64,000 nt of DNA from Candidatus Peregrinibacteria bacterium CG1_02_54_53. Its GTDB lineage: Bacteria; Patescibacteriota; Gracilibacteria; Peribacterales; Peribacteraceae. Numbering within the stretch: the stretch's first letter is position 1; every line of letters begins with the position of its first letter. This document shows, one piece after another, positions 1,498-3,550 of the stretch. Under the pieces are notes generated by a model. The model had not been told where the DNA came from. It was given only the letters and a program-made list of their open reading frames with translations, and did no database searches. Both the position numbers and the translations under genes were made by a program. The stretch spans positions 1 to 64,000 of the forward strand of contig MNWP01000003.1 in NCBI GenBank assembly GCA_001872575.1, read 5' to 3'.

Positions 1498-1530
1498 AAA
1501 AAGGCGGGCCCCGTACGGGTCACCGCCTCT
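1498..1530 (-). terminator. Rho-independent terminator downstream of the Gly/Cys peptide ORF
   Basis: Minus strand: GGCGG-TGACCCGTACGGGGC-CCGCC hairpin followed by TTTTT. Confidence 0.65.
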
Positions 1531-1554
1531 CGATTGAGGGGGGCGTGCAAGGCT

Positions 1555-1629
1555 TTAGCAGGAGCCGCAGCCGCAACCACCGCCACCACCCATGAGGCCA
1601 CAACAGCCTCCTTTTTCACCACCGGACAT
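1555..1629 (-). CDS. 24-aa Gly/Cys-rich peptide MSGGEKGGCCGLMGGGGGCGCGSC
   Basis: Own translation; absent from ORF track (too short); flanked by promoter/CIRCE upstream and terminator downstream. Confidence 0.6.
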   Translation of the reverse strand: MSGGEKGGCCGLMGGGGGCGCGSC

Positions 1630-1658
1630 AAGAGGGGGGGAAGAACTAAGAGACGAGA

Positions 1659-1687
1659 AGTATACCATACCAATTTGGCACTCTCAA
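1659..1687 (-). promoter_or_regulatory. Sigma70-type promoter, TTGAGA-N17-TATACT
   Basis: Minus strand -35 TTGAGA at 1687-1682 and -10 TATACT at 1664-1659, spacer exactly 17 nt. Confidence 0.7.
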
Positions 1688-1701
1688 TGATAGAGTGCTA
1701 A
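1675..1701. promoter_or_regulatory. CIRCE operator (HrcA binding site)
   Basis: TTGGCACTC-TCAATGATA-GAGTGCTAA versus consensus TTAGCACTC-N9-GAGTGCTAA; one mismatch. Confidence 0.9.
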
Positions 1702-1739: not shown

Positions 1740-2585
1740 TCAGAGCGGATGCTTCTTGCCCAAGCCGTCTCTGTGATATTTGCCGAATTCCATAATTTCG
1801 CGGGCCACGTCATTTTTGACAACCGGCCCATCGGTGCACATGCGCATACCTGACGCATCGACCGCACAGTTGCCGCAGAGTCCGTAACCGCATTTCATGT
1901 ACCGCTCGAGTGAGAGTTGGCACGCAACCTTGTGCTGAAAGCAGAGATCGGAAACCGCGAGCAGCATTTTCTCGGGGCCGCAGGCGAAGACCTGATCAAC
2001 CGCGCGAGCGGTTGACCCTGAGCGAAGTTGAAGGGTCTTTGCTTCGAGTATGTCTCGAAGAATGTCTACATTGTATCCCTTATGCCCCTGCGACCCGTCA
2101 TCTGTGGCAACGGAGAGTGTGGTTCCGGGCAAGCCGGAAAATGCATCGAGGTAAAGCAGGTGCTCCTTGCTCCGCGCACCGACGATTGCGGTAATTGTGC
2201 AGGAATCTTTTGCTGCTTCGGTTGCAGCGAAAAACATCGGCGCCGCTCCGTAGCCACCCGCGACAAGCGCAAGGTGCTGCTTGGGTTTCCACTCGTAATG
2301 CGTACCGAATGGGCCGCGCAGCCCCACCAAATCCCCTTTCTTCAGACTCGCCAGTTTCTTCGTCGTATCGCCGACCGCGAAGAACGTGATCTGCAATTTC
2401 TTGCCATCATCCAATGCAACACTCATGGGAATTTCATCGCTGCCCGGCAGCCACACCATGATGAATTGTCCGGGTTTGGCACCCAGTGAGACGGCAAAGG
2501 TAAATGTCTGCACATGCTCTGTCTCTTTCTTCACACTTGCAATGCGATATGTAATAGGCAAACGATTCCCGCAACCGCATGTCAT
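1740..2585 (-). CDS. pyrK: Dihydroorotate dehydrogenase electron-transfer subunit / FAD-[2Fe-2S] reductase
   Basis: Starts MTCGCGNRLP; 2Fe-2S motif CGYGLCGNCAVDASGMRMC; ACGPEKML; start overlaps pyrD stop (ATGA). Confidence 0.88.
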   Translation of the reverse strand: MTCGCGNRLPITYRIASVKKETEHVQTFTFAVSLGAKPGQFIMVWLPGSDEIPMSVALDDGKKLQITFFAVGDTTKKLASLKKGDLVGLRGPFGTHYEWKPKQHLALVAGGYGAAPMFFAATEAAKDSCTITAIVGARSKEHLLYLDAFSGLPGTTLSVATDDGSQGHKGYNVDILRDILEAKTLQLRSGSTARAVDQVFACGPEKMLLAVSDLCFQHKVACQLSLERYMKCGYGLCGNCAVDASGMRMCTDGPVVKNDVAREIMEFGKYHRDGLGKKHPL

Positions 2586-3550
2586 AATGAGCGAGAGGAA
2601 AGAGCCTGATGCATTCCACCGATGAGCTTGGAGATATCTTGCACTCCCTCTGCTTCGCCCCATGCCGCCATTTCTTCGCAGACCAGACGAAAAACTTCAG
2701 CACCGCGGTACCCGATTGCCGTGCCGATGCCGATGAGCGTGGCACCCGCAAGCAGGAACTCAATGGCATCCTCGCCCGTCATGATGCCCCCCGTGCCAAT
2801 GATCGGGAGCTTGCCTCCCGTGGCCCGGTAGACATCCGCAATGCAGCGCACCGCAATCGGCTTGATAGCGGGACCCGACATGCCACCGACTTTGTTGGCG
2901 AGAATCGGCAGGCGGCTCTTGAGATCGATCGCCATGCCCGGACCGACAGTGTTGATGACTGTGAATCCGTCGGCACCTGCATCCACGCAGGCCGCGGCGA
3001 TGGAGCCAATGTCGTCGACATTCGGCGAGAGCTTGATGAAAACGGGGATCTTGCCGCTCACCGATTTCACAGCTTTGGTGACGGCAGAGGCATCATGTGC
3101 CGAGCAGGCGAAGGGCTTGCCGAACTCATCTTCAACGTTGGGACAGCTGATGTTCACTTCGAGAAAATCCGGTTGAAGCTTCGCGATTTCTGCAGCGGTC
3201 TTGCCATAGTTTTCGACCGTGTTGGCAATGATGTTTGCAATGAGCGGGACCCTTCGGATGCGCTCAGGGCCTCCGGCAGGCCCCTTCATATAATCGCCGA
3301 TCTCCTCGCGCGCCTTTTCGATACCCGCATCGGGCACACCCACGGCATTGAGCGTCCAATGCTCCGTCGAAATAATGGTGGGATTGGGGTGACCCTTATG
3401 CTCCGAAAGCCACAGGGACTTTGTCGTAATGCCCCCTGCTCCGTTCTGCGCCACCCGACGCCAACTCGATGCCGTAATTCCCCAGATGCCCGACGCGAGA
3501 ACAGTGGGGTTCTGGAAGGTGACCCCGAGGACCGTCTGGGAGAGGTTCAT
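2582..3550 (-). CDS. pyrD: Dihydroorotate dehydrogenase, catalytic subunit
   Basis: MNLSQTVLGVTFQNPTVLASGIWG, NISCPNVEDEFGKPFACS, GTGGIMTGEDAIEFLLAGA. Confidence 0.93.
   Translation of the reverse strand: MNLSQTVLGVTFQNPTVLASGIWGITASSWRRVAQNGAGGITTKSLWLSEHKGHPNPTIISTEHWTLNAVGVPDAGIEKAREEIGDYMKGPAGGPERIRRVPLIANIIANTVENYGKTAAEIAKLQPDFLEVNISCPNVEDEFGKPFACSAHDASAVTKAVKSVSGKIPVFIKLSPNVDDIGSIAAACVDAGADGFTVINTVGPGMAIDLKSRLPILANKVGGMSGPAIKPIAVRCIADVYRATGGKLPIIGTGGIMTGEDAIEFLLAGATLIGIGTAIGYRGAEVFRLVCEEMAAWGEAEGVQDISKLIGGMHQALSSRSL

Follow-up and report, generated by a model that had tools for sequence, protein, structure and literature searches.

A predicted HrcA-controlled gene for a Gly/Cys-rich micropeptide in Candidatus Peribacteraceae

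The minus strand of the window (the whole stretch of DNA that was analysed, 64 kb in length) carries at positions 1701-1498 a one-mismatch CIRCE, a sigma-70-like promoter overlapping this CIRCE, a micro-ORF and a terminator. As far as sequence comparison goes, this arrangement strongly supports a stand-alone gene for a Gly/Cys-rich peptide that would be controlled by HrcA, as had been proposed in an earlier note on this DNA. In our assessment this is a classic HrcA operon that yields a new type of product, the HrcA regulon having been thought to be limited to chaperones, proteases and its own repressor. The micro-gene family described here seems to be previously undescribed. No mention of HrcA in Peribacteria was found in the open literature (subscription literature being outside the scope), and chaperones, thioredoxin and small proteins go unmentioned in the main text of a paper on five complete Peribacteria genomes. 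Gene finders drop ORFs as short as these, so that an effector would have been overlooked across a whole bacterial family.

The locus in the window

The CIRCE operator, i.e., the presumptive HrcA site, is read at 1675-1701 on the minus strand as TTAGCACTC-TATCATTGA-GAGTGCCAA, with one mismatch to TTAGCACTC-N9-GAGTGCTAA and a spacer of exactly 9 nt, and it is also conserved in relatives. It is the only match in the 64 kb to a CIRCE search allowing up to three mismatches, for which shuffled sequences give an expectation of 0.01. The -35 hexamer TTGAGA (1687-1682) lies within the right arm of the CIRCE and is followed, after a 17-nt spacer, by the -10 hexamer TATACT (1664-1659), so that both the overlap and the promoter are as first described. 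From the -10 to the ATG there are 29 nt, from which a leader of about 22-23 nt is predicted (1630-1652, with the transcription start placed from the -10), containing the pyrimidine tract TTCTTCCCCCCC; the length previously given (about 22 nt) holds, while the wording “nearly leader-less” does not, the leader being merely short. The reported absence of a Shine-Dalgarno sequence from this leader is correct and normal here, since only 6 of the 44 long ORFs of the window have one. The complete ORF (1629-1555, from the ATG at 1629 to the TAA at 1555, stop included) encodes the 24-aa peptide MSGGEKGGCCGLMGGGGGCGCGSC, which contains five Cys (positions 9, 10, 19, 21 and 24) and not six, and which is expected to be disordered. 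An intrinsic terminator, read as a G+C hairpin followed by a T run, occupies about 1531-1498, and the whole transcript would be an RNA of only about 150 nt. Within the ORF (1580-1620, minus strand) there is also a perfect Shine-Dalgarno-like run, AAAAAGGAGG, followed 14 nt later by an ATG in frame, from which MGGGGGCGCGSC would be made; this is absent from relatives with shorter peptides. Elsewhere in the window, an ORF of 52 aa on the plus strand (315-473) has two CxxC pairs and looks zinc-ribbon-like.

The genome to which the window belongs (1.37 Mb, 42 contigs) contains six CIRCEs, and the other five precede groES-groEL, dnaK, a clpC-type ATPase gene, a gene for an Hsp20-type protein and hrcA (as named from the translated sequences). 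Given that these five front classical targets, the micro-gene would bring a standard HrcA regulon to six targets. It resembles the groESL and dnaK operons known from this regulon in the operator, in the 9-nt spacer and in the promoter overlap, but differs from them in that the product of the micro-gene is a Gly/Cys peptide of 8-30 aa across the family, and not a chaperone, a protease or a regulator.

The TTCTTCCCCCCC tract is common to the relatives and resembles the leaders of groES, dnaK, clpC and hsp20. When ATGs are scored with a matrix made from the micro-gene leaders, 17 of 48 long ORFs of the window rank among the best 5%, against an expectation of 2.4, and this enrichment at the starts of long ORFs argues that the tract is a general start-site feature of the genome, rather than a special RNA element. 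A TTYCCCC pyrimidine tract was likewise noticed shortly before many ATGs, those of chaperone genes included (in the window and at L038, L046, L053 and L054), and it is possible that the pyrimidine tract represents a translation-start or start-site signal used throughout the lineage.

A family of micro-genes and the evidence that they are translated

A direct protein search with the 24-mer reached only the window, the sister species and one match of E = 0.2 in an unrelated coding region, which is why the relatives were sought through the operator combined with a codon pattern, and through synteny with pyrK. The resulting set (built from CIRCE plus codon patterns, looser patterns and a pyrK-anchored search) comprises 46 micro-ORFs, which come from 44 of 74 Candidatus Peribacteraceae genomes (one of them with two copies) and from one further named species. 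Carriers are found in 22 of 40 genera, the genera being the grouping made by the search tool and the genomes having been tallied by hand from the locus list. Among the 359 genomes of the class, a pattern combining the CIRCE right arm with Gly/Cys codons had a match in 20, which all belong to the family of the window, as compared with one match for the reversed control; of these 20 matches, that in G064:C40 is a chance match without a CIRCE, the micro-gene proper of G064 following pyrK. When a pattern containing both CIRCE arms was run over 85,462 species, it returned 42 stretches: 20 are Peribacteria/Peregrinibacteria records, all with CIRCE and micro-ORF, and the other 22, which come from other bacteria, are CIRCEs before hrcA/groES-like genes, or chance, none of them showing a comparable Gly/Cys micro-ORF when checked. 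Among the species scanned, the arrangement of CIRCE and micro-ORF was found only in the Peribacteria clade. Matches to TGYGGNTGYGGNNNNTGYTRR outside the family were rejected as chance coding matches.

The sister genome (G002) encodes the identical peptide in an ORF that differs by three changes, each at a third codon position, behind a two-mismatch CIRCE and in the same pyrD-pyrK neighbourhood, and the peptide of the isolate STB_147 is the same as that of this sister. Behind a CIRCE in the same genus are also MVGGGKGGCCGCGSC, MSGGEKGGCCGCC and MFGGGKGGGGCGGCCGCC. In one genome, two CIRCE/micro-gene copies (L101 and L105, at G047:C35:69329 and 73190) are located about 3.9 kb apart. Another genome has a 30-aa member, MWSNDDGKGGCCGSCCGFTCGGGGCGCGSC (L074, G040:C20 near 38000), that lacks a CIRCE and lies on a contig different from that of pyrK.

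In the window, the conserved upstream neighbours are a pyrK-like gene (dihydroorotate dehydrogenase electron-transfer subunit; 1740-2585, minus strand, start codon assumed) and, next to it, a pyrD-like gene (dihydroorotate dehydrogenase; 2582-3550, minus strand), both named from the sequence together with established family knowledge. Most members directly follow pyrK (pyrDK) on the same strand, across genera. When the 53 distinct pyrK loci that extend at least 250 nt beyond the gene are considered, a CIRCE (up to four mismatches) lies within 700 nt in 32, and in 31 of these 32 a Gly/Cys ORF begins at an ATG located 45-59 nt further on (the remaining one, G062, has its ORF on the opposite strand), which strongly supports the proposed HrcA control of a peptide gene. 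The earlier note had regarded as contrary evidence a CIRCE kept beside a broken peptide with unconserved Cys, and this was looked for in the relatives and not found. What the relatives keep is a Gly/Cys micro-ORF, although neither the length of 24 aa nor the number and pattern of Cys is maintained. In some genomes with pyrK no micro-gene was seen after it, so the micro-gene would not be essential. Its place after pyrK looks inherited, and no functional tie to pyrimidine synthesis was seen.

Since the search for most members relied on Gly/Cys patterns, the conservation of composition is partly a matter of ascertainment, against which the spacing of the promoters and the set anchored on pyrK serve as safeguards. 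Four pyrK-anchored loci with CIRCE-like sites (L206, L208, L212 and L224) were fetched without any Gly/Cys pattern, listed with a composition filter and reread without it. As for the promoters, 14 members have a -35 of the TTGAGA/TTGCGA type within the CIRCE right arm, and in 22 the -35 is TAGACA and abuts the edge of the CIRCE, which places the promoter about 10 nt further downstream. In both registers the -10 is separated from the ATG by 28-33 nt (with one exception, at 24 nt, where a further ATG in frame would bring the distance to 30 nt). The start codon tracks the promoter and not the operator, and this is good evidence that the promoter serves the micro-ORF. Terminators follow 37-71 nt beyond the stop codon wherever the locus reaches far enough.

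The 46 peptides are 8-30 aa long, always Gly-rich and with 2-8 Cys. All of them have at least two Cys (nine have only two), and 42 contain CC or CxC. Leaving out the initial Met, they add up to 331 Gly, 184 Cys and 58 Ser, followed by Phe, Lys, Asp and Thr. MTGPGCGC and MTGGCGCK are the shortest, with MSGGSGSCC also among the shortest, and MSDGHCNCLGGGRCNCKKCNCS is the most metallothionein-like. In two members (L176 and L178, from G066 and G048) tandem repeats of FGPGCGSC are present, i.e., these peptides would have grown by repeat duplication. Between near-identical pairs, 12 of 16 nucleotide changes are synonymous (fraction expected 0.25, P = 4e-5) and 14 of 16 fall in codon position 3 (P = 1e-5), the 16 changes being a hand sum over L001/L002, L001/L116, L100/L101 and L176/L178 that takes them as independent. 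The Gly codons vary in their third position across the members (GGT 136, GGC 129, GGA 52 and GGG 14), with G dominating position 2. In turn, the aligned leader-plus-ORF RNA shows no conserved fold (z = -0.8), and Rfam gave no match up to E = 1 for positions 1450-1750 of the window. Mostly synonymous change, together with the lack of a conserved fold and of an Rfam match, indicates that selection acts on a short protein. Five members searched against Pfam and NCBIfam (metallothionein profiles included) gave no match up to E = 10, and a PDB search gave none either. For genes of 8-15 codons, validation can come from the regulon, the promoter-to-start distance, synteny and codon-position change, and not from protein similarity.

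What the micropeptide may do

The reading that we prefer, whose chances we would put a little short of even, is that of a thiol micropeptide that is derepressed from HrcA and buffers soft metals or the thiol/disulfide state during proteotoxic stress. HrcA is known to be inactivated when unfolded proteins occupy GroEL (HrcA/GroEL titration). At a self-standing gene whose promoter is overlapped by the CIRCE, and in which a short leader rich in pyrimidines is followed by the Gly/Cys micro-ORF and an intrinsic terminator, HrcA bound to the CIRCE would block the RNA polymerase until folding stress (heat, thiophilic metals or oxidants) draws GroEL off HrcA, and the micropeptide would then be made in a burst alongside GroESL, DnaK, ClpC and Hsp20. 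The resulting micropeptide would be soluble and 8-30 residues long (24 in the window), the only chemistry common to the members being at least two Cys in a flexible Gly background, and we infer that folding stress leads to its accumulation and that it acts by way of its thiols. These Cys may constitute a cheap gene-encoded thiol buffer that chelates soft metals (Cu(I), Zn(II), As(III)/Cd(II)), engages damaged proteins in thiol-disulfide exchange, or does both. The Cys pairs, the Gly background and the members rich in His or CNC are in keeping with metal buffering; however, a multi-metal cluster like that of classical metallothioneins is out of reach for two-Cys members of 8-10 residues. Between the metal and redox roles we have no more than a mild preference, for metal/thiol buffering in general.

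Small metallothioneins, such as the fungal copper metallothioneins of roughly 25 aa, share with the micropeptides the very short length, the Gly richness, the lack of an expected fold, the CxC/CC/CxxC pairs and the induction by stress (predicted here), although the micropeptides have no Pfam, NCBIfam or PDB match, many of them contain only 2-4 Cys and their control would be exerted via HrcA and not by a metal sensor. With regard to size, the gene for the microcin C7 precursor, mccA, has 7 codons and is part of a modification/export cluster. It is comparable to the 8-codon members as a stand-alone gene of fewer than 10 codons for a functional peptide (the function being a prediction here), whereas no modification or export genes were seen at the micro-gene loci.

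One alternative, rather unlikely in our estimation, is a low-molecular-weight dithiol with a mainly redox task, the CGC/CC motifs mimicking a disulfide isomerase/reductase that repairs mis-oxidised proteins, with no role for metals. The shortest members amount to Gly plus CGC or CC, and the CGC peptide by itself is isomerase-active, with a redox potential of -167 mV, according to PMC5238392, which cites Woycechowsky and Raines, so that thiol-disulfide exchange fits the forms of 8-10 residues. The likeness to this CGC tripeptide mimic lies in the shortest natural peptides ending in CGC or CC within a Gly background (PMC5238392); the mimic, however, is synthetic, whereas the natural motif forms part of a gene product. 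The redox alternative also draws on the GCS2 glutamate-cysteine ligase, which 67 of the 74 family genomes lack, yet one of the seven that have it is the genome of the window (a GCS2-family glutamate-cysteine-ligase-like gene at G000:C7:7439-8224), and the argument from missing glutathione is weakened there. A role as glutathione substitute is thus possible in most relatives and is not argued for the genome of the window. Furthermore, members that have 5-8 Cys and CNC/CNCKKCNC patterns are more suggestive of metal ligands, and cytosolic disulfide repair is normally done by thioredoxin. It is improbable that the peptide instead binds a chaperone or protease (GroEL, DnaK or ClpC), or HrcA as a feedback ligand, with the Cys giving an assembly or a disulfide-linked form: its regulon is shared with exactly GroEL, DnaK, ClpC and HrcA, but conservation is limited to Gly and Cys, no binding motif is recognisable and the length varies nearly fourfold.

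A regulatory RNA with an incidental ORF would suit the short transcript with its own terminator and conserved pyrimidine leader; we consider it quite improbable, as close relatives change mostly at synonymous third positions, the Gly codons vary, neither a conserved fold nor an Rfam match was obtained, and the leader tract, found also before groES, dnaK, clpC and hsp20 and enriched at other long ORFs, looks translational or promoter-proximal. The layout of a short Cys-rich ORF with an immediate terminator is also that of an attenuator, in which ribosomes stalling at Cys/Gly codons of a leader peptide would attenuate a downstream gene, a reading with very little to recommend it given that the gene has its own stress promoter, that no anti-terminator pairing is evident and that no conserved downstream gene was found. 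Beyond the terminator there are convergent genes in the window and in the sister, a putative methyltransferase gene in G008/G045 and a gene for a RelA/SpoT-like protein in G023/G050, and this difference between genera argues against a leader for a downstream gene. The chances are equally slight that the micro-gene encodes the precursor of a modified ribosomal peptide of the thiazole/oxazole type, like microcin B17; the similar richness of such cores in Gly, Cys and Ser is a lead only. A YcaO-modified peptide is unlikely, given that YcaO occurs in one of the 74 family genomes and not in that of the window, that no micro-gene was found in the carrier (L230, G009:C1:7637-8647) and that neither a leader peptide nor an adjoining modification or transporter gene is present in the loci read.

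Should the preferred thiol-buffer reading be extended, ultra-small bacteria would encode their stress thiol directly, as an HrcA-induced Gly/Cys micropeptide of at least 8 codons that takes over part of the job of glutathione and phytochelatins (metal buffering and disulfide repair). This extension is doubtful, if possible; were it true, it would define a new class of heat-shock effectors, encoded by some of the smallest stand-alone functional genes known. As the operator, the promoter register, the ORF and the terminator are all readable, a role of a minimal thiol peptide in heat shock can be put to a direct test, using synthetic peptides 8-24 residues long.

Operators other than the standard CIRCE

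A CIRCE (up to five mismatches) accompanies 36 of the 46 members. In G023, G050, G065, G008 and G045 the micro-gene has a TTGACA-N17 promoter with the palindrome TTAGTTTAGTNCTAAACTAA, placed between the -35 and the -10, instead of the CIRCE, and there is one such site per genome, at the micro-gene only (L225 1501-1520, and the same place in L226-L229). Another five members have neither CIRCE nor TTAGTTTAGTNCTAAACTAA. The peptide thus appears to outlive its regulator, HrcA control being probably the commonest mode and not a universal one. The half sites of TTAGTTTAGTNCTAAACTAA recall DtxR boxes, and a metal regulator of the DtxR type was considered for them and rejected, no DtxR-type C-terminal domain being found in the 74 family genomes. 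A variant of the CIRCE, TTATCACTC-N9-GAGTGATAG, is located at the micro-gene in L206, L208, L212 and L224, and similar sites occur elsewhere in G005/G006. Such variants suggest that the specificity of HrcA may have drifted in part of the family.
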